A DNA stretch of 47,593 bases from Clostridiaceae bacterium (GTDB lineage Bacteria > Bacillota > Clostridia > DSM-8532). The stretch covers positions 1-47,593 of the forward strand of contig JAAYFY010000015.1 in assembly GCA_012728015.1 (NCBI GenBank), given 5' to 3'. Of this stretch, positions 3,697-43,545 are shown in pieces (the stretch's first letter is position 1; each line of letters opens with the position of its first letter). The notes beneath the pieces were generated by a model. It made no database searches. It saw only the letters and a program-made list of their open reading frames with translations, and was not told the DNA's origin. A program made the position numbers and the translations under genes.

Positions 3697-6693
3697 CTAC
3701 TTAATGATAAACAGATCAGCCCTTTCCATGTCTGAAAGCGTTCTTCCGTCAAGCTGCCTTTCCGCCTTCTCTATGAGCATACGGGTATCATAGAAAGGAA
3801 TCAGGAGCAGTTCATTGGCATGACTGCTGACCAGTGTTTTGAAATCGGGAGAAACTCCTATCAGTCGCTCCAGGTAACCCAGCTTCTTTTTGTTCTCCCA
3901 TCGCCAGATAATGGCTTCGGCTTTGTCACCCATGGTGATAAGGAAGGTCCGGCTGTCATCAAAAACAACATTTGATGTTACCTGAGACATGCCCTTCAGC
4001 TCTGCCTCCAGCTTCCCGGATGCCGCTTCATAGCAGCGCAGGCTGTAATCATCCATGCAGACAAACAGATACCTGCTGTCGTCATCAAACAACACATCCA
4101 TTGCCTCTATATCAAAATCATTGATGATAAGGCGCTCCTTAAAACTGCCGGAATCCAGCAGACCGATACTGTTATCCGGGTAGATGGCCGCTATCATGTT
4201 ACCCTTGCCGCTGACAGCAACAGCCCGGATATCTTCCTCCGGGAAGGTAAAGAGTTCCTCTCCGGACTCGGTGCTGTAAACCGTCGTACCGCTGTGAAGG
4301 GACGCCAGGATAACCCTCCTGTTCTGGTCATAGAAATGGGCTGTTCTGAAAAAGGTGTTATGGGTTTCGGCCGCAAGGCTCAAATCCTTCGTGCGGATAA
4401 TCCGGGAGCCGTCGGTTGTTCTTGCCACGCAAAACGAGCCATCGGGACTTATGTGATTCATCTCAACGCTGTAGTCGTATGTATCCTGGGCCAGAAGCTC
4501 CAGGGTCCCGGCATCGTATACCGACAGCACACCCTCAAGGCCGGTAGCGAATATCTTTCGGCCTTCATCCGTGAAACAGGCATATGTAAGATTCATCCCG
4601 GTTTCGATTATACCTTTGGGCTCCCTGGTCTCCCAATCCCAAACCCCTATTTCCCCGGTATTGAATGTATAGGAAAGAACCATGCTGGAATCGGGGCTGA
4701 AGTCGCATCTGTTAATGGTATTACCAAGGCCGGACAGCCTCTGGATGTCCTCATTCTCCAGGTTCCTGAGCAATACTGCCTTGTCTGAGTAATCGTATGA
4801 GGCTGCTATCACGCCCGAACTGATCATGAAATTGTTGACGCCCTGGGATAGCTCAACTCTGCCGAGGAAATACTCCCAGCCGATACCATCCATGACCCAG
4901 AAACGGATGGAGCCGTCATAGGACGATGATACCACGAACCCATCCCAGATGATGTAGTCGCTGACATTGCCGCCCGAGATAAAGGTGTATAGCAGTTCAT
5001 CCATGGAAACGTCCAGGACGTTAATTTTTTCGCTCTCCGTGAAAAGAAGCAGGTTTTTGTCATAAGGCGAGAAAGCCAGGTCGCTTATACTGGAGTAGTC
5101 AAACTGCCGGTTAATAAGCCTGTAACCGTCAAAGTCAAAGATATCCAGGGTGCCTTTCCCCTTTGAAAGCAGGTCGGATGTTTCCAGGACAAAGTCGCTG
5201 GACGCCACTGCCACGACACCTTCGGAAACGGCAACATCGGTAATCTCATTATACTCTGTCAGATATTTCTGAAGCAGGCCGTCCTTCTTAATATCAAACA
5301 GGAGAACCTGGCCGGAATTGGTACCCAGGCACAGGTAGCGTGCCGTGTCGTCCATGCTCATGCTGGTGACTGAAACAAAGCCGTCACCCTCCAGGTAGTC
5401 CTCTATGTCGTGCCTGAAAAGTACGGCGCCTGTCGGAATATCCAGCAATGCCACAGCGTCGCTGCTGACAACAGCCACACTGCGGCCGTCCGCGCTCAGT
5501 TCAAAACGGGTGATATAGTCATCATACTCCCAGTTCGCCTTCATGGTTTCAAGATCCAGGCAGGTCAGCCTTCCGTCGGCTATGTAAACTATGGTCCTGT
5601 CGTCGGCATACCTCAGGCTGTCCTTCCTGGGATATCTGTCGCCGACGAAATGCTTGTTGAGTAAATCCCCGTGCTGGGTGTCCCAAACATAAAGATAGCC
5701 GTCTTTAGCCCATGTCACGGCGGTTTTGCCGTCGAAGCTCAGGCAAATGAAATTCACGATATTGTCATGCTTTAGCGCGACGTCCGGAAGAAATCTGTTA
5801 TCGGTTTTATAGACATGCAAAGCCTGGCCCAGGGCATATTCGGCTTCCTCAACATATGGGCGTTCGGGATTGTCCAAGTCGGCAGGCAGAGCTTCCCTTG
5901 CCACCATTATGGCCGTCCTGCGGTCGCCCTCCGCCAGGAGCTGGGTTGATATATTGGCCATGTATAGAGACTGCCCTTCAAGCGTTTTCTGCACCTGCTG
6001 CTCAAGAAGAATGGATTTCTGACGGATCTGCCAGGCCTGCCACGCACTGAAGGATCCAAAACCCAGGAAAAAGACCGAAAGGGATATGGACAGCGACAAA
6101 ATCCGCTTAATAGCCCGTTCCCTGTGACGCTGCCTCAGGTCGTCGAACCGGCAGTTGAGGATGGGCGCCAAAAGGCGCAGGATCTCCATCTTGAGCTTTT
6201 TCTTCATCTTCCCCAGGCTGTCCGCCCGAATATCAGCCGCCAGCGGCTCAACCTCTTCAGTGACTTCCCTGATCCCCCCATCTTCACCCACCACCTGGCG
6301 TCTGACATAACGCAGGGGTTCGGGAAAAGATTCATAGGGCTCCCCCTCAATAAGGAGAGCCAGGATCCGCTCCTGTCCGTGAAGCTTAGAAAAGGTTTCT
6401 ATCTCCTTCATCACCCACTTGGATTGGGATGTCCTGGGTGAACAGATAACTATAAGGTACTCTGAGTTTTTAAGGGCTTCGTTAATATTGTCAGCCAGGT
6501 TTGAGGAGGTGGGAAGCTCTTCACGGTCCCGGAAAACCCTGCCCACCTTCTTCTTTATTCCCTTTCTGGCCAGGCTTTTTGGAACCTTGAAGCCTTCCAG
6601 CATCCTGTGCAGCTTTTCGGCTATGGTCTTATCCGGCTCGGTGTGGCGATAACTGATAAACGCGTCATATTTAAAGATCTCATTCTCCCGCAT
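3697..6693 (-). CDS. TIR domain / membrane anchor / WD40-like repeat protein
   Basis: Three parts are visible in this 998-residue protein. Residues about 7-130 form a TIR domain that starts KYDAFISYRH, contains FRDREELPTSSNLADNI and has SKWVMKEIETF. Glu97 in that last motif lies where NAD-cleaving TIR enzymes such as SARM1 carry their catalytic glutamate. Residues about 195-218 are a single hydrophobic helix, flanked by basic residues and a short coiled stretch. Residues about 250-995 are a long array of beta-propeller-like units with repeated patterns such as DGKTAVTWAKDGYLYVWD and DSRYLFVCMDDYSLRCYE. The layout suggests a cytosolic or membrane-tethered TIR with a large sensing or scaffold platform. 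Related TIR-WD40 proteins occur in Clostridia, but their role (NAD signalling, defence, or plain scaffolding) is not settled. The ATG has only a weak GGGG site upstream. Confidence 0.82.
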   Translation of the reverse strand: MRENEIFKYDAFISYRHTEPDKTIAEKLHRMLEGFKVPKSLARKGIKKKVGRVFRDREELPTSSNLADNINEALKNSEYLIVICSPRTSQSKWVMKEIETFSKLHGQERILALLIEGEPYESFPEPLRYVRRQVVGEDGGIREVTEEVEPLAADIRADSLGKMKKKLKMEILRLLAPILNCRFDDLRQRHRERAIKRILSLSISLSVFFLGFGSFSAWQAWQIRQKSILLEQQVQKTLEGQSLYMANISTQLLAEGDRRTAIMVAREALPADLDNPERPYVEEAEYALGQALHVYKTDNRFLPDVALKHDNIVNFICLSFDGKTAVTWAKDGYLYVWDTQHGDLLNKHFVGDRYPRKDSLRYADDRTIVYIADGRLTCLDLETMKANWEYDDYITRFELSADGRSVAVVSSDAVALLDIPTGAVLFRHDIEDYLEGDGFVSVTSMSMDDTARYLCLGTNSGQVLLFDIKKDGLLQKYLTEYNEITDVAVSEGVVAVASSDFVLETSDLLSKGKGTLDIFDFDGYRLINRQFDYSSISDLAFSPYDKNLLLFTESEKINVLDVSMDELLYTFISGGNVSDYIIWDGFVVSSSYDGSIRFWVMDGIGWEYFLGRVELSQGVNNFMISSGVIAASYDYSDKAVLLRNLENEDIQRLSGLGNTINRCDFSPDSSMVLSYTFNTGEIGVWDWETREPKGIIETGMNLTYACFTDEGRKIFATGLEGVLSVYDAGTLELLAQDTYDYSVEMNHISPDGSFCVARTTDGSRIIRTKDLSLAAETHNTFFRTAHFYDQNRRVILASLHSGTTVYSTESGEELFTFPEEDIRAVAVSGKGNMIAAIYPDNSIGLLDSGSFKERLIINDFDIEAMDVLFDDDSRYLFVCMDDYSLRCYEAASGKLEAELKGMSQVTSNVVFDDSRTFLITMGDKAEAIIWRWENKKKLGYLERLIGVSPDFKTLVSSHANELLLIPFYDTRMLIEKAERQLDGRTLSDMERADLFIIK

Positions 6694-6830
6694 ATGCGTA
6701 CCCCATCAAATACTTCGTGTTGCCAATAAAAGGCTGTTATTATTTTAGACTATATAACAAAATCTGAAAAGTCAACAAAAAGCCTGCGTATGAAGTCACG
6801 CAGATGCCGTTTGAGGCCGCAGGAAAGGAA

Positions 6831-6854
6831 AACAGGGAAGATTGCTTCCCTGTT
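6831..6854 (-). terminator. Intrinsic terminator of the ABC-2 exporter operon
   Basis: A perfect 10-bp stem, AACAGGGAAG / CTTCCCTGTT with a 4-nt loop, lies 70 bp past the stop of the permease gene. On the minus strand it is followed by TTCCTTTCC, a pyrimidine/T-rich tail. The rest of 6694-6924 holds a possible minus-strand promoter for the TIR gene (TTGACT near 6774, TATAGT near 6754, spacing short at 15), which I do not list separately. Confidence 0.7.
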
Positions 6855-6924
6855 ATATCCTGTTTCATGGTAAACAGCCTCTATAAACGGTTGGCCTGCC
6901 AGTGAACTTACCGGGCAGGGGTCA

Positions 6925-32831: not shown

Positions 32832-32904
32832 GCTATACACCCCTTAAAGTCTTAAGTCGGAAGGAGAGCCGCAGGATTAAAAGAAGCCATAATGATGGCA
32901 GAAA

Positions 32905-32936
32905 GCAGCAATGTCTATAAACAGGATTATTGCTGC
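32905..32936 (-). terminator. Possible terminator after trpB
   Basis: GCAGCAAT (32905-32912) and ATTGCTGC (32929-32936) can form an 8-bp stem with a 16-nt loop. On the minus strand TTTCTGCC follows. The T-run is short, so this is tentative. Confidence 0.35.
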
Positions 32937-32982
32937 CTTCTCCAAATATTACAATAAACCGGATTCAAATCATTCGTAATTA

Positions 32983-34209
32983 CTACTTAATCCCAAGCTT
33001 CTCCCCGTATTTTTCGATCACATAATCCATATCCTTGTCACCGCGGCCGGAAAGGTTGACCAAGATGGAACCGGTACCCATCTCCCTGGCGAGTTTCATG
33101 GCATATGCTACGGCATGGGCGCTTTCCAGTGCCGGGATAATGCCTTCCATCCTGGATAAGGTGGAAAAGGCATGGATGGCTTCTTCATCATTTGCCGTTA
33201 CATATTTGACACGCCCCAACTCTTTCCAGTAGGCGTGTTCCGGACCACTTGAAGGATAGTCCAGACCGCTTGCGATGGAATATACCGGAGCGGGCTTGCC
33301 GTTTTCATCTTTCAGCATTATTGAATTAAACCCATGCATAATACCTTCAGAGCCATATGTCAGGCTGGCCGCGTGCTGACCGAGCTTTGTGCCGAGACCC
33401 AGCGGTTCAACACCGTACAACTCTACCGGGTCATTCAGAAAAGCCGACATGATACCTGCGGCGTTTGAACCCCCGCCCACACAGGCAACAACGGCATCGG
33501 GCAATTCGCCGGTCATATCCAGGAACTGCTGTCTTGCTTCAACTCCTACCACCGCCTGGAAATCCCTTACCATCATGGGGAAGGGGTGCGGCCCTACAAC
33601 AGATCCTATGCAATAAATGGCGTGTTCATATTCATTGAGATATGCCTCAAATGCAGCGTCAACCGCTTCCTTCAGGGTTTTCAGCCCGTGGGTAACCGGT
33701 ATCACCCGCGCTCCAAGAAGTCTCATGCGGGCAACATTTGGCGCCTGTTTTGCGATATCCACTTCACCCATATAGATATCGCATTCCAGGCCGAAGTAAG
33801 CTGCGGCTGTGGCCAGCGCAACGCCATGCTGACCTGCGCCGGTCTCCGCTATGATTTTCTTCTTGCCCAAAAACTTCGCCAGAAGTCCTTCGCCCATACA
33901 GTGGTTCAGTTTGTGGGCTCCGGTATGGTTCAGGTCTTCACGCTTCAGATAAATCTGGCAGTTCCCGATGGAGTTGGACAGGCGTTCGCAATGGCATACC
34001 GGAGTCGGGCGACCCTGAAATTCCTTCCTGATCCTTCTCAGTTCATGAATGAACTTGGTGCTCTTGCATATGGTATGATAGGCCGTTTCAATTTTCTTAA
34101 ACTCATCCACAAGCTGCGGAGGAACATAGGCACCGCCATACCTTCCAAAATATCCGTTTTTATCGGGTGTCGTCTTTAAATACACTGAAAAATCCATTTC
34201 TTTTTGCAT
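32983..34209 (-). CDS. trpB: Tryptophan synthase beta subunit-like protein, standalone
   Basis: This 408-residue PLP enzyme joins indole and serine to make tryptophan in canonical members. The PLP lysine lies in [45 protein letters not shown], the phosphate-binding GGGSNAAG and the C-terminal SGRGDKDM are all in place. It differs from the usual TrpB in [12 protein letters not shown] (normally HKxNNxxGQALL) and [13 protein letters not shown]. No trpA or other trp gene is near, so it probably uses free indole or has drifted in substrate. AAAGGAGA precedes the ATG, and a good promoter lies 95 bp upstream. Confidence 0.88.
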
Positions 34210-34304
34210 CTCAGATCTCCTTTGCCTTATGGTAGTCGATATAATCCGACGATGTTGCCCCTGTCATATGCGGGTTATTTCCCTCAGTTTATTCATACTT
34301 CTTC

Positions 34305-34333
34305 AACATAAGGCATTACTTCTGTGCTGTCAA
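34305..34333 (-). promoter_or_regulatory. trpB: Promoter of trpB
   Basis: On the minus strand TTGACA (34328-34333) is exact and TATGTT (34305-34310) follows after 17 bp. The leader of about 90 nt shows no TRAP-like triplet array and no T-box. The remainder of 34210-34504 holds nothing else that I recognise. Confidence 0.7.
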
Positions 34334-34504
34334 CCTGTATGTTCCGGGCGACCAAAAAAACCCCGCCAAAACCATGCCGCACAAGAGGATATTTTTATCA
34401 TGCCTGCAAATCAATACAGAAATACCGGTCAGTTTAAGTCAGGATAGAAATATTGGGAATATGAGAACCGGGATTTTTGCAGATTCTATGGAACAGGTTA
34501 AACC

Positions 34505-37500
34505 TTACTGGTCTTTGAGCAGCTTCAGAGCCCTTGCCTTGGTTACGGTCTGCAGCCTCCTGTTTACCCCCAGTTTCGCGTATATGTTCTTTATATGCCC
34601 CTTTACCGTGTTCACAGTAATATCCAGGAAATTGGCAATCTCCTTGTTTGACATTCCCTTTGCAATCAGGTTGAGAATCTCGGTTTCCCTTTCAGTAAGA
34701 GGTTCAATAAGGCTTGCCTGCCCCACTTCCTTATTACCGGCATGTTCTTCAATAATATAATCCTGGAGCTTTTTTGCATAGGCAATCTGCATGGACAGGA
34801 GCTTTACAATCTCCAGGCGTTTTGGAGCAAAAGCTCCCGGCAGAAAACTGTTTTCCAGGTACATCACGCCGAAAGGAATCCCCTGGCACAACAGCGGCAG
34901 GCATGCAATGGACTTGCAGTCGGATTTCTTTATATAAGCATCACTGGCAAATATGCCTGCTTCATCTTCTGAATTTATAACGGTAGTGTCCAGGGTCCTG
35001 GCCACATAGTTCACTACAGACTTCGCAATATCATCATATTCATCGAGGGGGATGGTTGTTGCTGCTGCCTTACTGCTGTCGGTATTCCTCATTACTTCTA
35101 TGAACAAATCGCCGCCTTTTTCGAAAATAAGATAGCTGGAATCGGCGTTGATGCTCTTTACGACTATATCCAAAAAGCCTTCCAACAGCTTGTTGATGTC
35201 AGTCTCACCCCTGATGCTCTCAATAGCCTTGCTGATGTAATAGGAATCTGAATTGTCGTCCATCTGCCCGTTAGTCGGCAAAGCTGTATTGAATGCTTCG
35301 CTTGATGAATAATAATATGGGTCTTTTTCTTTTTCCACGTAAATCCCATGCAGGATGTCGGGATACTTTGCCTTGAGGTCATTTACTTTGGCAATGGCTC
35401 CCCACTTTTTATAGCCCTTGCAGGCATCGGTCATATAGGTTTGGGCTATCCTGTCCATGCCAGCTGCCAGATAAAACCTGGCTGCCAGTTCATTTGCAAG
35501 GGCTTCATTCTGTATATAGCCATAAATATAGGCCGATCGTATAGCCCGATCGTAGAATAGCATCGCTTTCTCCCGTTTGTTTTTCAAACTTACAGCCTGT
35601 GCGCATACTAACAGGTATTTGTGCTCAAAGTTGTCCTTGCAGGACTGTGCCCATTTTTTCAGCATGCGCAGATTCTTCCTGAGGATTCTGCCATAAAGCC
35701 TTTTTTCCCGGGAGGACAGTTCGTTATATACCGATGTAATAATCAATGAATCATAGAAATAGTATTCGGCATAAACCATAAAGCCCATAATGGCGCCTAT
35801 GATCGGTCGGATCTTTTGCGACATGGACAGGGCTGTCCTGTAGTTTCCGGCCATATAATGTATCTGCATCCTGCGTACGTAATATGTTGCAAGGGAAGAC
35901 TGATCTTTCTGCACCAAATCCAGAAGCTCGCCCTTTTCCAGTTCCGCAATGACAGCTGCCAGCGCATCCGCGTTCTGTCCCGTCAGCGCAGATACGACCG
36001 TATCATATATCGCGTTATTGACGCAGAGATGATGATGTTTTGTTTTTTTCAGTATTTCATTCTTTTCATGTACTACTTCCATCATCCTTTTCAGGGGAAC
36101 ACCCATAATATACTGGTTCTCGATGAGCAAGCAATGAGAATAACCTGCTACTACTATGTTACCTGCTTCGGCTCCGGCGGCGGCCGACTCTCTGAGGTAA
36201 TCCAGCCCGATGGACGCATGACTGGTCCAGTGTGAAAGCAGTGATCCCACAACAAAATTAGCGATGCACTTTGACGAACTCAGGTTATATTTTTCGGCCA
36301 GCTGTAAACTTACTTTTCCATACCTTTCACCGGCCTTGTAATCTCCGAAGAGGCTTCCAGCAGTAATACCGTATCCTAAATAGCCTACCGAAGAAAGTTC
36401 GCTGTTCCCGTGCCGGACTGCAAAATTGCCGGTTTTCACAACGATAAAGCTGTATAATTCAGGAAACGTAGACATGGTTACATAGCACAAGCGGGACAAA
36501 AGCTCTGAGACCTTTATGAGCCGTTCATCTTTCATATCGGGCAGTAAAAGAAGGTCCTCTATTGACTTGTTTCTCATGTACCACCTATACAAAAACAGCT
36601 CCCGCGCAAAATCAAACTTGGTGGGATGGATCGGTATTCTCATTCCAAGGTCATTAAGGGCTTTAATACCTATATGGACTGCCTCGTCAAGTTTTCCAAT
36701 GCCTGCACACAACACCATTTTTGAAGCATAAACGTCCGCACGCTCCATTGCCGTTTGAGACATTTTCAGACAGGTGTCAAACAGTTTTTCAGCATTTTCG
36801 GTATCGGCGCATAAGTACAGCGCCTGGGCATATTCCAGGTTTATATGGTAATTAAGTATATGATCGCGTTGCCAGGCATCTTCAGGCATCAGCAAGCTGG
36901 CGCATCTCAAATACTGCAGTGCTGAAGCGTAGGCTGCGGAAGTCCTTGCTTTACGCCCCGCAATGAGATTATATCCAGCCAGCTGAATCCTTTTTTCATG
37001 GTCTTGAATTAATTCCAGTCCGCGATTGAAATGATCCATAATAAACAGGATCCTGTCCTCAATATTGCTGTCCGGCGCGTTCTCCAGAAGATAAGAGCCT
37101 ATCATTACATGCCTTCTCTTCTTTTCTTCTTCTGAAATTTGGGAATATACCGCCTGCTGCACCCTGTCATGCAGGAATTCATAGTTTGGGCTGCCATCGT
37201 CAGTATCCAGTACTATAACAAACCCTTCATGGATGGACGGCATCAACGCGGCTGCCGTTTCATCCATGGGTTTACTCCAAAGCGCTGCCAGAGTTTTCAG
37301 GTCAAACCTGTTTCCATAGCAGGAGGCCAACATAAGCGCTTCCTGTGCTTCATCAGGAAGCATCTGTATTTTCCTCGATATAAGCTCCAGAACATCTTCT
37401 CCTTGCTGAAGGCTCTGTACGGCCTCCAGGTCCCACTTCCAGCGGCCCTCATCCATGTCGAAACTGAGAAGCCCTTCGTCGTAAATCAGTCTGAGAAACT

Positions 37501-39193
37501 GTCTTAAGGCAAATGGATTACCCGCCGATTTACGGTACAGCCATTGTACAAGGGGCTCTGAATCCTGCAGATGGGCTCCCAGCGTATCGGCAATAATCGC
37601 TTCAATACCATTTATATTCAGTGTAGAAAGAACGATTGTACCTACCCTGTTATCCTGCCCATTCTGTTCCCGGGATTCCTCCAGTATTTTAAGTAATGGG
37701 TGGCCTTCCTCCAGTTCGTTTTCGCGAAAAGCGCCTACTATAAGTAAATAATTGAGGTCCGTGTCCTGCATCAGGTATTTAAGCAGCTTTATTGAATCGG
37801 GGTCCGCCCATTGGAGGTCATCCAAAAAAAGCACCATGGGATGGCCCTTCCAGACAAATACCTTGATAAAATCTCTTAATATGTATAAAAAACGGTTTTC
37901 AGCTTCCTGGGGCAGCAGGGGTTCCGCCGGGGGCTGTTTACCGATAATCCATTCCAGCTCTGGGATTATCTCGGTTATTACCGCGCAGTTTCTACCTAAT
38001 GAATGAAGGATCTTTTTTTTCCACCAGGCAAGCTTATCTCTGTTCCAGGTCATAAGCTGTTTTATCAGTTTCCCGAAGGCATCGGCATAAAGGGCATAAG
38101 GAATGTTTTTTTGCAGTTGATCCGCTTTTCCGGCTATAAACCATTCCTTCTGACGCATGCACGATTTAAGGCCTTCTTTTACCAGCATTGTCTTTCCAAT
38201 ACCAGGCTCTCCGCTTACCAGTATGGTTTCGGACCTTCCGGCGCAAACCCGGCGATAGGCAGCCTTAAGCGTGTCAATCTCATGATTTCTGCCGTAAATT
38301 TTGTCAGGGAGATGAAAGCGTGTAAAGTCGTCCATCCTCCCGACAGGAACGCGTGTTATCTGGCCCGCTTCTTCCAGCTGCTTCTTGCATTCTCTGAGAT
38401 CCCACAGCAGTCCATAAGCACTCTGATACCTCTCCTCGGGATCTTTATTCAGAAGTTTCATAATTATATTGGATATTGCCGATGGAATAAAAGAATTGAT
38501 TTCCTTTGGCGGTACGGGTTTCCTGGTTATATGTTCATAAGCCCAGTCTTCAGGGCCTTCCGCCCGGAAGGGAATCTGACCGGTTATTATCTCATAAAAT
38601 ACCACACCCAGTGAATAAAGATCGCTGCGCCCATCAACCCCGATGTTCAGCTGGCCTGTCTGCTCCGGGGACATGTATTCAGGGGTTCCCGCTGATTTTT
38701 CAGCAACCTTGACGTTATTACCTTTCCCTGGAAGCAATGCGGCGTTGCTGAAATCTATAATGCAGCACTTCCTCCGCCTGGGATTGAAAATGATGTTTTC
38801 AGGCTTCAGATCTCTATGGATTACACGGCTCTGGTGAAGCTTTCCAAGGGCTTCTGTGAGTTGGACGGCAATGTCAAGAAAGTCATGCAGGTCTATGGAG
38901 TGGCGCAGCATGAATTCCCTGAGGGATACGGCCTCCATGTCTTTCATGACCAGAGCATAGAGCGGCCTTGACTGTATCAGTTCCACAGGCTTGACAATAC
39001 CGTCTATCTCAAGGTTATGAGTGATCTCGTACTCATGTATCAGCAAGGCAATTCCTAACGGGTTGACAGCTTCTTTTTTGATGGCCTTTATGACCACCGG
39101 CATACGATTTTTTACCGAGTATCCTCTATAAACTATCAGCCTGTCGTTTTCATGCAGTATCTCATTGATTTCATAATCAGGCAAAATAACCAC
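34505..39193 (-). CDS. Ser/Thr kinase-AAA ATPase-GAF-LuxR giant regulator
   Basis: Four parts are visible in this protein of about 1562 residues. Residues about 5-265 are a Ser/Thr protein kinase with Lys36 in VVIKAIKKE, HRDLKPEN at 126-133 and IIDFSNA (DFS replaces DFG). Residues about 300-600 are a STAND-type AAA ATPase with Walker A GEPGIGKT at 328-335 and the Walker B region LFLDDLQWAD. A long helical, TPR-like region follows. A GAF-type domain occupies about 1270-1410, and a C-terminal LuxR helix-turn-helix (LTERETEILNLIAKGMSNKEI) occupies 1498-1562. The kinase-AAA-GAF order is that of hybrid histidine kinases, but the kinase output is replaced by a DNA-binding domain. The start is GTG 39193, eight bases after GGGAGG; a longer frame to 39295 lacks a site. 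Targets are unknown. Confidence 0.88.
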   Translation of the reverse strand: MVILPDYEINEILHENDRLIVYRGYSVKNRMPVVIKAIKKEAVNPLGIALLIHEYEITHNLEIDGIVKPVELIQSRPLYALVMKDMEAVSLREFMLRHSIDLHDFLDIAVQLTEALGKLHQSRVIHRDLKPENIIFNPRRRKCCIIDFSNAALLPGKGNNVKVAEKSAGTPEYMSPEQTGQLNIGVDGRSDLYSLGVVFYEIITGQIPFRAEGPEDWAYEHITRKPVPPKEINSFIPSAISNIIMKLLNKDPEERYQSAYGLLWDLRECKKQLEEAGQITRVPVGRMDDFTRFHLPDKIYGRNHEIDTLKAAYRRVCAGRSETILVSGEPGIGKTMLVKEGLKSCMRQKEWFIAGKADQLQKNIPYALYADAFGKLIKQLMTWNRDKLAWWKKKILHSLGRNCAVITEIIPELEWIIGKQPPAEPLLPQEAENRFLYILRDFIKVFVWKGHPMVLFLDDLQWADPDSIKLLKYLMQDTDLNYLLIVGAFRENELEEGHPLLKILEESREQNGQDNRVGTIVLSTLNINGIEAIIADTLGAHLQDSEPLVQWLYRKSAGNPFALRQFLRLIYDEGLLSFDMDEGRWKWDLEAVQSLQQGEDVLELISRKIQMLPDEAQEALMLASCYGNRFDLKTLAALWSKPMDETAAALMPSIHEGFVIVLDTDDGSPNYEFLHDRVQQAVYSQISEEEKKRRHVMIGSYLLENAPDSNIEDRILFIMDHFNRGLELIQDHEKRIQLAGYNLIAGRKARTSAAYASALQYLRCASLLMPEDAWQRDHILNYHINLEYAQALYLCADTENAEKLFDTCLKMSQTAMERADVYASKMVLCAGIGKLDEAVHIGIKALNDLGMRIPIHPTKFDFARELFLYRWYMRNKSIEDLLLLPDMKDERLIKVSELLSRLCYVTMSTFPELYSFIVVKTGNFAVRHGNSELSSVGYLGYGITAGSLFGDYKAGERYGKVSLQLAEKYNLSSSKCIANFVVGSLLSHWTSHASIGLDYLRESAAAGAEAGNIVVAGYSHCLLIENQYIMGVPLKRMMEVVHEKNEILKKTKHHHLCVNNAIYDTVVSALTGQNADALAAVIAELEKGELLDLVQKDQSSLATYYVRRMQIHYMAGNYRTALSMSQKIRPIIGAIMGFMVYAEYYFYDSLIITSVYNELSSREKRLYGRILRKNLRMLKKWAQSCKDNFEHKYLLVCAQAVSLKNKREKAMLFYDRAIRSAYIYGYIQNEALANELAARFYLAAGMDRIAQTYMTDACKGYKKWGAIAKVNDLKAKYPDILHGIYVEKEKDPYYYSSSEAFNTALPTNGQMDDNSDSYYISKAIESIRGETDINKLLEGFLDIVVKSINADSSYLIFEKGGDLFIEVMRNTDSSKAAATTIPLDEYDDIAKSVVNYVARTLDTTVINSEDEAGIFASDAYIKKSDCKSIACLPLLCQGIPFGVMYLENSFLPGAFAPKRLEIVKLLSMQIAYAKKLQDYIIEEHAGNKEVGQASLIEPLTERETEILNLIAKGMSNKEIANFLDITVNTVKGHIKNIYAKLGVNRRLQTVTKARALKLLKDQ

Positions 39194-39398
39194 TACAATT
39201 GCCTCCCAGTATAAATATACCACCTGTTCTGCAAAAAGTGAAATGACCAGATCGGATTTTCCATGAGTTACGCACGGGGAAAGAAAACCCTGCAAGAGAA
39301 CACCATATCTCCGGCAGGGCTTTCAGATTATTCTCCTTCGATATAAGATGGGGGGGTATAGAAGGAGATACCATATAAATGGTTCCAGATTCGTTCCT

Positions 39399-39407
39399 AT
39401 TATAACA
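39399..39407 (-). promoter_or_regulatory. Extended -10 promoter for the giant regulator
   Basis: TGTTATAAT on the minus strand is a perfect extended -10, with no clear -35. It lies about 205 bp upstream of the GTG start. The leader between them contains no other feature I recognise. Confidence 0.45.
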
Positions 39408-39417
39408 AAAACATGAT

Positions 39418-39443
39418 AAAAAAACACCACCCGAAAGGGTGGT
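39418..39443 (-). terminator. Terminator of the SLH surface protein gene
   Basis: ACCACCC and GGGTGGT form a 7-bp stem with a 4-nt loop, followed on the minus strand by GTTTTTTT. The same hairpin and about 40 neighbouring bases recur at 42291-42355. Confidence 0.85.
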
Positions 39444-39557
39444 TTATGTGGTTTGTATGCTGTATTATGTAGAAACATCGTATAATTCAGGGAACAGCAG
39501 AATAATATGTCATCATGTGCCTGCCTTTGTATTTGCTTACCATCAATGCATGTCGCC

Positions 39558-40940
39558 TTACTGACCCGGCACTCCTTTTAAAACGGGATAGTAGTCATCA
39601 CCCCCGAAGTCCCAAATGTCTTCGCTCCATTTTGTGTAGATGATGTCACTCGGAGTTCCAGTTTTCATTTCCTCGGTGGTACGGGGTTCTCCTTTGCCTG
39701 TATCATTTTGGCCAGTAGTTTCGGAATCATAGTAGCTGGCTATAACTTGGCCTGGATCTTCATTATTTCCGCCATTAGAACCTACTAACCCTCCTGTATT
39801 AGAATTTCCCGTAACTATTCCGATTGCATAGCTATTCATTACTTTTCCCGTAGTTAAATACCCAATCAGTTTTCCCACCAAGCCGCCAACGTGTTCTGAG
39901 CCTGTAACTTCTGTGTTGGCATAACAGTTTTCCATTCCCCCCATATCAAATTTTCCAATCAAGCCACCTACACTAATGCTACCATGGACATCTCCTGTAG
40001 CCCAGCAACTATCTATATTTGATTTAACTGAATACCCCACCAGGCCGCCAACGTTTTCTGAACCTGTAACTTCTGTGTTGGCATAACAATTTTCCATTCC
40101 CACTGTATCAGTTGTTCCAATCAAGCCACCTACATCTTTACTGCCTTGAATTTTTCCTTCAGCCCAGCAATTCTTTATCTTTGAATCGTATGAATATCCG
40201 ATCAGACCACCAACATATCCTGAACCACTGTCTTTGACCTCTCCGGAAGCTGAACAGCCTTCAATTGTTCCTTCCTCAACCAGCCCGACAAGGCCACCGA
40301 CAGTTTCACTGCCAGTGACAGTTACGGTGGCATTACAGTTTTTTATAGTCCCAACATACAAATGACCTACTAATCCGCCAACATTGCCACGACCTGAAAC
40401 ATTTCCTTTTACATAACAGTCATTTATTGGGCTTTTAGCATATCCAACCAATATCCCTGTCTTATTGTTTCCTTTTACATTCGCGTTTTCCAAACCGATA
40501 TTCATTAATTGCCCGTCTGATGACAGTTCTGAAAACAGGCCTACTTTATCCGTACCTGGAAGATTTATAGTTAGATTACTTATGGTAAAGTTGTTACCAT
40601 CGTATACGCCGCTAAACGCAGGAAGGGGCTGCCAGTTATAACCACTTAAACTGATATCCTCTATCTGTTTATAATGGAGAGAGGGATTTTCTCTTACATA
40701 GGTGTTAAGTTGCTCTGCCGTGGCTACCAAATAGGGATAATCTTTGGTGCCATCACCTTTTGTGATCATTTCTGTGGGGGAACTGGTATTACTCTTTCCA
40801 TTGTATGATACAATCACGCTGATGCGTCTGCCCACATCCTGCTCGGTTAATGTGTATGTGTTTTCCACAGCGCCCTGAATGGGATTTCCATTTCTCTGCC
40901 ACTGGTAAGAAATCAGCACCAGCCTGTACCTGAGCCACAC
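39558..40940 (-). pseudogene. SLH/GLUG surface protein, C-terminal part (out of frame)
   Basis: This frame is the downstream portion of the surface protein whose N-terminal part occupies 40789-42105. It opens with an Ig-like or bacterial-adhesin domain (YQWQRNGNPIQG, then TYTLTEQDVGRRISVIV). It then has about nine GLUG-type repeats, each with a VGGLVG core, such as NVGGLVGHLYVGTIKNCNA and TVGGLVGLVEEGTIEGC. GLUG repeats build a right-handed solenoid in cell-surface adhesins. The first residues before YQW are in the wrong frame relative to the SLH part, and no ribosome site precedes the Met at 40940. So it is not a separate gene but is joined by a single-base shift near 40910-40917. Confidence 0.8.
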
Positions 40941-42105
40941 CTACGCTGCCGCTACCGATAATAGAGGTCTTCGGTGCCTGTGTTTCAATTGTACTTACTA
41001 TACCTGAAACTTCTACTGTAGTATCGGCTGCCTGCCCTGAAACGGCAAGAAACTCAGCAATTGAACCTTCGTCCACTATTAGTGTAACTCCTTCACCAGC
41101 TATATTGATATTGCTGACCTGTGCACTCTTTGCTGTTACCGTGATACCAGAAGCCTTTATCGCTACATTGCCGACAGTTCCTTCGATATAGACATCATCG
41201 GAGCCATCATCTATTACTATAACCTCAACATCCGCATCTCCTTCTACTTTTACACTGACAGTACCATTGGCCTTTGATACGATGATGTTTGACACTTTGG
41301 ATGCTCCCCTGATGATAATTGAGTTTTCTCCGCCTCCTCGAGCAACTAATCTGCCAGTCACGGTTACATTATTAAGTATGACCTCTCCATCGCCGACACC
41401 ATCACCAATGAACAGGTTTCCATAAATCACAGAATTCTCAAGGGTTACATCCGGGACATTTATCATCACGCTGCCCTCGGACACTATCTCATATTCTCCG
41501 GCCATTCTGATGTACTTCTTCACAATATTGTCCATCATGGCGGCAAATTGCGCCCTGGTCATGCAGCTTAATGGATCAAGCATTCCGTTATACCCATTGA
41601 TATATCCCGCATTAACTGCAGCATAAACATACCCTTTTGCCCAATCTGATATCTTGTCATCGTCAATAAACTGCTTCATGCAGGTATCTGCCGGCTCCAA
41701 CCTGAAAGCTTTAGCCATAACAACACAGACTTCCTGACGGGTTACATGGTTTGCAGGATACATCCTGCCGTTTGAACCCACCATCACACCCATTTGATAA
41801 GCTTTGGCCATGTAGTCCGTATACCAATCGGTGGGCTTGACATCGGAATAGCCGCTCAGATCACCCTTAACTTCAGCATTAAATGCATGACAAATTATGG
41901 TCGCCAATTGGGCTCTCGTCAGGTATTCGTTTGGAAGGATTTTGCCACCAGATCCCGACAACAAGCCATTTTCTACTGCATTCTGCAACGCTTGCGTTGA
42001 CCAGTCATTTGGCATATCAGGGAACGTGGGTAGAGTTTTCTCTGCGGCTACATCGACCGCAAACGATGGTATCTGTACCGTGCAGACAGTCATCGCTGCA
42101 ACCAT
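40789..42105 (-). pseudogene. SLH surface protein, N-terminal part (frameshifted)
   Basis: The N-terminal portion carries three S-layer-homology repeats: FPDMPNDWSTQALQNAVENG, YSDVKPTDWYTDYMAKAYQMG and FIDDDKISDWAKGYVYAAVN. They would anchor the protein to cell-wall pyruvylated polymers. A beta-solenoid-like stretch rich in Val/Ile/Asp/Gly follows (GNLFIGDGVGDGEVILNNV), and the frame is lost after QVQAGAD. At the 5' end the best start is ATG 42134 with AAAGGAGA upstream. That frame gives MRFKKFLSCLWLQR and stops, whereas one more A in the AAAAA run would give MRFKK plus VFILLMVAAMTVCTVQIPSFA, a proper signal peptide. Two homopolymer indels therefore break an otherwise sound gene of about 859 codons. 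Confidence 0.8.
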
Positions 42106-42238
42106 AAGCAGGATAAAAACTTTTTAAACCTCATTTTTGGATCTCCTTTCATCTGTAATCGATTGCTAGTGATGCGTATGTGGTTTCCCCTCAACCTGAG
42201 TGGTAGAGTAAATAGCGTTAAGGTGTACTCTTGAACAG

Positions 42239-42264
42239 TTAGTTTTGAGTTTTAGTTTTGAGTT
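42239..42264. repeat. Tandem 13-bp repeat upstream of the SLH gene
   Basis: TTAGTTTTGAGTT occurs twice in exact tandem (42239-42251 and 42252-42264). On the minus strand it lies just downstream of a -10-like TATAAT (42270-42275). It may bind a regulator; no family is suggested by the sequence. Confidence 0.55.
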
Positions 42265-42290
42265 AAAGATTATACTAATAAAAACACGGC

Positions 42291-42316
42291 AAAAAAACAC
42301 CACCCGAAAGGGTGGT
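42291..42316 (-). terminator. Terminator of the divergent ABC exporter operon
   Basis: ACCACCC (42299-42305) and GGGTGGT (42310-42316) form a 7-bp stem with a 4-nt loop, and the minus strand continues with GTTTTTTT. This closes the operon 42373-45629 and is almost identical to the hairpin at 39418-39443. Confidence 0.85.
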
Positions 42317-42372
42317 ATTAGCATTTTTTGTTGTATTATATCGAAACAGCATATGGTCCTTTTTATTATCGC

Positions 42373-43545
42373 TCATGCCTCCTGCGCCTGCCGCTTCTGC
42401 TTTATGATTACAAGGGCAACTGCCAGGACAGCAACAGCTATGCCCATCTGCATACCCAGGTAGCCCAGCCTGGGTTTAAGCAAGTCCCATGTGATGTTTG
42501 CCATATTTATGATTTCATTGTTATACTTCACGTACCAGTAGGTGGGAAGGATCCGGGCAAAGGCCAGAACCTGCTCCCCGATAAGGTACTGAGGAACGAA
42601 AGCACCGCTGGTAAAGCACATACCAAGGGACAACACATTTGTTACAGCCGACAAGGCATTACGACTGCTAAGAGCGCTTCCTATCAGGAAGCTGATACTC
42701 AGGCATACAAAGGTAAAGACAAAAGTATTGAGGGCTACAAGAATGGTCTGCTTTGCAGGCATAGCTTTGCCATACAAAACAAATCCCAACGCCATCATGA
42801 TAATCCAGCATACTACAGCATATATCAGGTTGCCCAAAAGGATCTGCATGTTCTGCTGCCTTAAGGGAACCGGGGAACAGAGGGTTCTTCTGCGAAGGTC
42901 CCGCTGGTTGAAAACCAGCATGAAAGTCCCCACTCCCAGGATCAAAAGGTTCAGGAGCACATATGACATGTAGTTATAAAATATACTGAGGGTTTCCCCG
43001 GCATCTGCGTTTACCGCAGTAGGCCTGACCTCCACAGCCGTCTCAACCGACAGATCCCTGCTGACCAGGTCAACCAGTTCCTGCTGGATTATTCCAGGGA
43101 TATTGGCAAGGTAAAACCTGGCCATATTCATATATTTGTTAATATTAATGTCCAGATACACCGAAGAAACAGAGTTGGGTAGGCTGATCTTCTCAAGCCC
43201 GACCGGCTTGCCTTCCAGAAAGCCTTCAGTGAATCCAGCAGGGATTCTGAGGATGTAGTCGACCTCGTCAAAGAAAAGCGCATCCTGCAGGGAGGCCTGG
43301 TCATGCTTTACATCAACAAAGTCTGCATATTGTAACAGGTAATTCTTAAGGCCTTCGGTCAGTATGGAGGAATCCGCCTCGTCCATAAAGGCTATCCTTG
43401 CCCTGGCATCATCAAACCGCACAGTGGATGCGGGAGCGCCACTGCTCATCAGGATTGCGGCAAAGGTAACAAACACAATAATATATATAAGCAACTGGGG
43501 TATGCTTTTCTTAATCACCCTCTTGTATGCTTGGAATACTGGCAT
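42373..43545 (-). CDS. ABC-2 type exporter permease, subunit 2
   Basis: This 390-residue permease has one N-terminal membrane helix (PQLLIYIIVFVTFAAILM), a long extracellular region (about residues 40-190) and five more helices in the C-terminal half. This is the ABC-2 topology of antibiotic or lipid exporters such as LnrM/LnrN. SD AAGGAGGG lies six bases before the ATG. The gene overlaps the end of the other permease gene by 35 bp. The two permeases are the same length and are probably a heterodimer. Confidence 0.88.
   Translation of the reverse strand: MPVFQAYKRVIKKSIPQLLIYIIVFVTFAAILMSSGAPASTVRFDDARARIAFMDEADSSILTEGLKNYLLQYADFVDVKHDQASLQDALFFDEVDYILRIPAGFTEGFLEGKPVGLEKISLPNSVSSVYLDININKYMNMARFYLANIPGIIQQELVDLVSRDLSVETAVEVRPTAVNADAGETLSIFYNYMSYVLLNLLILGVGTFMLVFNQRDLRRRTLCSPVPLRQQNMQILLGNLIYAVVCWIIMMALGFVLYGKAMPAKQTILVALNTFVFTFVCLSISFLIGSALSSRNALSAVTNVLSLGMCFTSGAFVPQYLIGEQVLAFARILPTYWYVKYNNEIINMANITWDLLKPRLGYLGMQMGIAVAVLAVALVIIKQKRQAQEA

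Follow-up and report, generated by a model that had tools for sequence, protein, structure and literature searches.

A probable recent pseudogene of an accessory SLH-anchored surface protein in a Clostridiaceae genome

When a surface-protein gene cannot be read in a single frame, is it switched, recoded, lost, or simply missequenced? The question is raised by contig JAAYFY010000015.1 of a Clostridiaceae bacterium (47,593 nucleotides, all of which were analysed and are hereafter called the window), which carries such a gene, for an SLH/GLUG surface protein, on its minus strand, flanked by genes for an ABC-2 permease (42373-43545) and for a 1596-residue protein kinase/AAA/GAF/LuxR-type protein (34505-39295). 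The sequence-only reading had described two homopolymer-type indels, one in an AAAAA run of the signal peptide and the other at a TTT farther downstream, and had offered phase variation, recent pseudogenisation or sequencing error as explanations.

The only good start codon of the gene is ATG 42134, which lies 8 nt behind a Shine-Dalgarno sequence identified by direct reading (AAAGGAG, 42143-42149) and whose frame stops after 14 codons (MRFKKFLSCLWLQR, then TGA at 42092-42090; the remnant frame, read from the sequence, covers 42090-42134). The SLH frame, which is -1 relative to the frame of ATG 42134, is open from 42123 to 40792 (444 codons), and the Ig/GLUG frame, open from 40940 to 39561 (460 codons), is the third one. 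Pfam confirmed the three SLH domains (PF00395; 42027-41902, 41850-41728, and 41664-41542, together 41542-42027) and the GLUG repeats (PF07581) that had been read from the letters alone; the latter lie in a segment (39558-40910) that begins with the second half of an Ig-like domain and is open to the stop codon. Positioned 3' of the SLH domains is a "stem" region (40912-41530, the upper limit being approximate), conserved by blastp with proteins at three other loci (L007, L008, and L065) and truncated at its downstream end. All these features are on the minus strand. The gene has the three SLH domains (PF00395) of an SLH-domain surface protein and lacks a signal peptide, assigned by eye, in frame with them, as the Shine-Dalgarno start gives 14 codons only. 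A 162-nt tandem duplication, 80% identical, is also found inside the GLUG repeats (39874-40197), and no tRNA or Rfam matches were found in the window.

The N-terminal piece of the protein matches 52 of 61 genomes (own included) at E-values of 0.001 or below, in many cases through the SLH part alone. E-values below 1e-100 were obtained in two genomes besides its own (G028, 62% identity, 3.7e-162; G005, 49%, 2.5e-112), and within the family a match at 1e-60 or below occurs in 3 of 32 genomes, own included. A scan of a collection of named genomes returned three loci, in an Anaerovorax odorimutans MAG (43%), Intestinimonas butyriciproducens (39%), and Candidatus Pseudobutyricicoccus lothianensis (37%). 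The C-terminal piece matches 18 of the 61 genomes (own included), the best E-value in another genome being 3.8e-30.

The first break falls in an A5-G-T5 stretch of the signal peptide (42115-42125, minus strand), and the AAAAA run is indeed there, at 42125-42121. In all five relatives compared (L007, L008, L065, L066, and L067), a single open frame runs from the start codon through the signal peptide (assigned by eye), the SLH domains, and the stem, in keeping with the earlier description of a frame break at this place. Measured against this continuous frame, the break behaves as if one base were missing, and the missing base cannot be assigned to one position of the stretch. The uninterrupted reading in these five proteins also bears on the idea that programmed -1 frameshifting or reinitiation yields a working, shorter SLH-stem protein whose GLUG half is left unused. 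That the SLH frame is the -1 frame would fit the former; for the latter, the TGA that closes the 14 codons shares bases with an ATG in the SLH frame (ATGA, 42093-42090), as in coupled genes. The sequences A AAA AAG and U UUU UUA are slippery heptamers for -1 frameshifting; inspection by eye found neither here, and the shift is conserved in none of the five relatives. As to reinitiation, ATG 42105 lacks a Shine-Dalgarno sequence, and the products would be without the charged beginning of the signal peptide; the overlapping ATG could permit weak reinitiation without a full signal peptide. We therefore regard recoding of either kind as very unlikely.

The second break (40908-40915, minus strand), located by blastp, sequence reading, and sub-threshold Ig profiles, is of another nature. 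The TTT noted earlier is present at 40912-40910 and the change of frame there is real; a one-base slip at this TTT was nevertheless ruled out, because homology to L007, which extends over 397 residues without gaps (62% identity, blastp) up to residue 404 (D, codon 40914-40912), ends abruptly at the junction. Past this point the third frame reads SYQWQRNG..., that is, the middle of an Ig-like domain. In L008, 105 residues, a Gly-rich linker among them, separate the motif at the end of the stem from YQW; the window has 15 residues from this motif to AGAD, with SYQW directly after. By this comparison about 90 residues, comprising the end of the stem, the Gly-rich linker, and the first half of the Ig domain, are absent relative to L008, a protein that is 49-50% identical and stands in for the ancestral form of the window gene, which is not among the sequences compared. 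The alignments identify the break as a deletion of a net length not divisible by 3, probably of a few hundred bases. As roughly the second half of the Ig domain is all that is left, removing one T would not restore a continuous protein with an Ig-like domain, as had been thought, and of the two proposed homopolymer-type indels only the first, which acts as a one-base loss in the A5-G-T5 stretch, keeps that character.

The truncation of the Ig-like domain is also apparent from other comparisons. A motif search of the loci examined found a domain of the same kind at only two others (L008/L069 and L052), in which, with domain starts set by eye, about 33 and 39 more domain residues precede YQW/IQW. 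Matches to Ig profiles, all below the Pfam cut-off and the only profile matches that this half gives, begin at profile position 43 (SCAB-Ig) or 48 (IG_AIR9) in the window and at 17 and 2, respectively, in L008. A coding-frame model placed a frame change inside the gene at 40934/40933; it did not see the first break. The two halves might once have been two separate genes, against which speaks L007, in which SLH, stem, linker, Ig-like, and GLUG-like regions are found within one protein.

A deletion of this kind weighs heavily on the proposal that slippage in the signal-peptide run switches the protein on and off. The product is a surface protein and the A5 lesion lies at its very start, an efficient place for a switch. 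Runs of 7 nt are, however, the minimum applied for phase variation in a frameshift survey (PMC3711429), and the runs at the frameshifts of this gene are an A5 and a T5 (42125-42115) at the first break and a TTT at the second. A/T runs of at least 5 are ordinary in this genome (1,878 in 533 kb, or one in about 284 bases). If the first frame were put back into register, translation would still leave the frame at the deletion and finish in a wrong tail, so that, if the assembly is right, the off state is not reversible by slippage alone. Because the A5 run is ordinary and slippage cannot undo the deletion, phase variation is disfavored, and we give it hardly any chance.

The remaining option of error takes the real gene to be intact, a base of the A5-G-T5 stretch being missing by mistake and a linker region of about 270 nt having been dropped by the assembler. 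Both lesions are known from one assembly of 97 contigs and one genome of the species, and the absent stretch would encode a Gly-rich linker, that is, low-complexity sequence. Outside the lesions the two frames are open throughout (904 codons), neither half having gained a stop codon, which would also fit a working gene with sequence errors. Moreover, the authors of the frameshift survey, where they discuss unclustered frameshifts validated by BLASTp, expect these to stem from sequencing error and not from real indels (PMC3711429). We addressed this issue by running the coding-frame model on the window and 38 further stretches of the same genome (533,016 of 2,193,329 bases, about a quarter), the model being blind to nonsense mutations and to lesions near gene ends. 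Among 425 coding segments it found 137 same-strand frame changes, in 13 of which the upstream frame stayed open for more than 45 nt beyond the switch. Of these overruns, three look like intragenic breaks, and they fall in two genes, the SLH gene (once) and uxaE (twice).

We attributed the other ten overruns to ordinary gene boundaries with a start codon nearby: the open reading frames at one (L100, 8292-6384) were read and give two different complete proteins, and the other nine were judged on start codons alone, including two whose nearest start has only a weak Shine-Dalgarno sequence (L078, 13364/13437, and, on the plus strand, L100, 13355/13356). In control stretches from relatives, the counts were 67 segments and 17 frame changes; the switch was overrun at 2 of these, each with a good start codon. 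In an earlier pass, 8 of 84 same-strand frame changes had lacked a Shine-Dalgarno-like start. Two of them were the SLH gene and uxaE; at the remaining six the upstream frame stopped no more than 29 nt from the switch, as genes ordinarily end. On this basis we rejected the idea that frameshifts are overabundant in general in the sampled assembly.

Random error would scatter, whereas intragenic frame changes were confined to two genes with two lesions each, in spite of the 1,352 A/T runs of exactly 5 that the 533 kb contain. The sampled stretches include six of the genome's ten other SLH loci, and none was flagged; a genome-wide SLH search cannot serve as a control on its own, since even the broken gene turns up in it as a stop-free frame. 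As for the assembler, another SLH gene with a long Gly/Ser linker was assembled open through it, and the junction sequence and the Ig/GLUG half each match once in the genome, no paralogue of the latter being found, which leaves no known repeat to cause a misjoin. An artefact is accordingly less likely than a pseudogene, and on balance we consider it unlikely.

Whether the gene could be lost without harm may be judged from its genomic setting. The ABC transporter genes are present in two genomes of the same genus (G003 and G004, 88% and 76% identical DNA), and the segment with the kinase and SLH genes has no counterpart beside them in either. The two other same-genus genomes are uninformative on the site, because in G001 the place is unreadable and in G002 the contig ends there. 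No close homologue of the SLH gene was found in any of the four (G001-G004), in which the kinase gene gives domain-level matches only. On these comparisons the SLH gene is accessory, being absent at this place in both same-genus genomes where the place is readable, and its loss was therefore probably tolerated. The stretch at 32847-42368, which includes a PLP-dependent enzyme gene together with the kinase and SLH genes, has no counterpart at this place in G003; in G001, the PLP enzyme gene lies near the ABC genes. In the same genome the ABC permease seems fused to the gene after it in an 834-codon frame; we rejected this fusion, as the join reads N.

The SLH gene is flanked by a 46-nt direct repeat, the upstream copy of which (42271-42316, minus strand) consists of a terminator hairpin and an AT tail that by eye resembles a promoter; the downstream copy (39398-39443, minus strand) is 87% identical. 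With up to 2 mismatches the hairpin occurs nowhere else in the genome, and with up to 1 mismatch it is absent from the four same-genus genomes (in G002 the contig breaks off within the first ten bases of the hairpin). This repeat may mark how the gene was inserted. One could also imagine that the open half-genes between its copies form a silent surface-protein cassette, reactivated or swapped by recombination at a variable surface-antigen site, a scenario to which we attach next to no weight.

Taken together, these data make it quite probable that the locus is a recently inactivated accessory gene for an SLH-anchored surface protein, and of the three explanations offered at the outset it is recent pseudogenisation that two separate lesions, one of them a sizeable deletion, in an accessory gene support. 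The gene is disrupted relative to homologues that are open from the start through the stem (L007, L008, L065, L066, and L067), and it carries more than one disabling lesion, the loss of the signal-peptide frame and the junction at 40908-40915. Since lesions are paired in two genes and no others were flagged in the sample, recent pseudogenes fit better than scattered error. The original protein would have comprised a signal peptide, three SLH domains, the stem, a Gly-rich linker, an Ig-like domain, and GLUG repeats. One lesion would have inactivated the gene, selection would have been relaxed, and the other lesion would have followed, in an order that the sequence does not fix; neither half would now be exported or anchored. 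Relative to L007, codon positions 1, 2, and 3 carry 103, 68, and 224 substitutions (397 codons), a pattern that shows purifying selection in the past of the gene. The lesions cannot be dated, because dS against L007 is saturated (2.4).

In practical terms, the gene should be annotated as a probable pseudogene rather than a phase-variable antigen. The second break ought not to be corrected as if a single base were wrong, because a protein translated in that way would be without its linker and half an Ig domain. The locus adds one more case of the loss of an accessory SLH surface protein and has little significance beyond annotation. Our literature search returned no paper joining SLH domain or S-layer homology with GLUG, and none treating together at least four of the five subjects SLH, pseudogene, frameshift, S-layer, and phase variation.

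The nearest intact counterparts show what the gene may have looked like. The SLH protein of G028 (L007/L068, a 1571-codon open frame) shares with the window the signal peptide, the three SLH domains, and the stem (62% over 397 residues), and has Ig-like (Big_2) domains and a weak GLUG match downstream, as in the layout of the window gene; unlike the latter, it is uninterrupted, retains the Gly-rich linker, has Ig-like domains of another family (Big_2), and lies among other gene neighbors. That of G005 (L008/L069, 584 codons) resembles the window gene in the SLH-stem part (49-50% identical) and in its YQW-kind Ig-like domain, and differs in being uninterrupted, with a complete linker and Ig domain, and in having no Pfam GLUG match. 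Within the same genome, the closest parallel is uxaE (L072, about 5343-6878, G000:C63), which also has two frame breaks in the same assembly. Unlike the SLH gene, it encodes a metabolic enzyme (tagaturonate epimerase, PF16257), and both its lesions are small deletions: the copy in the same-genus G003 (L089, 80% identical DNA) is intact, and against it uxaE of this genome is short by 2 nt at one place and by 1 nt at another. The alignment of the two also contains two nearby single-base gaps of opposite sign that cancel out. On a broader scale, the GeneTack survey, which covered 1106 complete genomes (Antonov et al. 2013, PMC3711429), reports that most annotated pseudogenes among its frameshift genes are singletons of this unclustered, BLASTp-validated kind. 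The SLH gene resembles these pseudogene and singleton frameshift genes, as the survey describes them, in having a change of frame with neither a recoding motif nor a long run.
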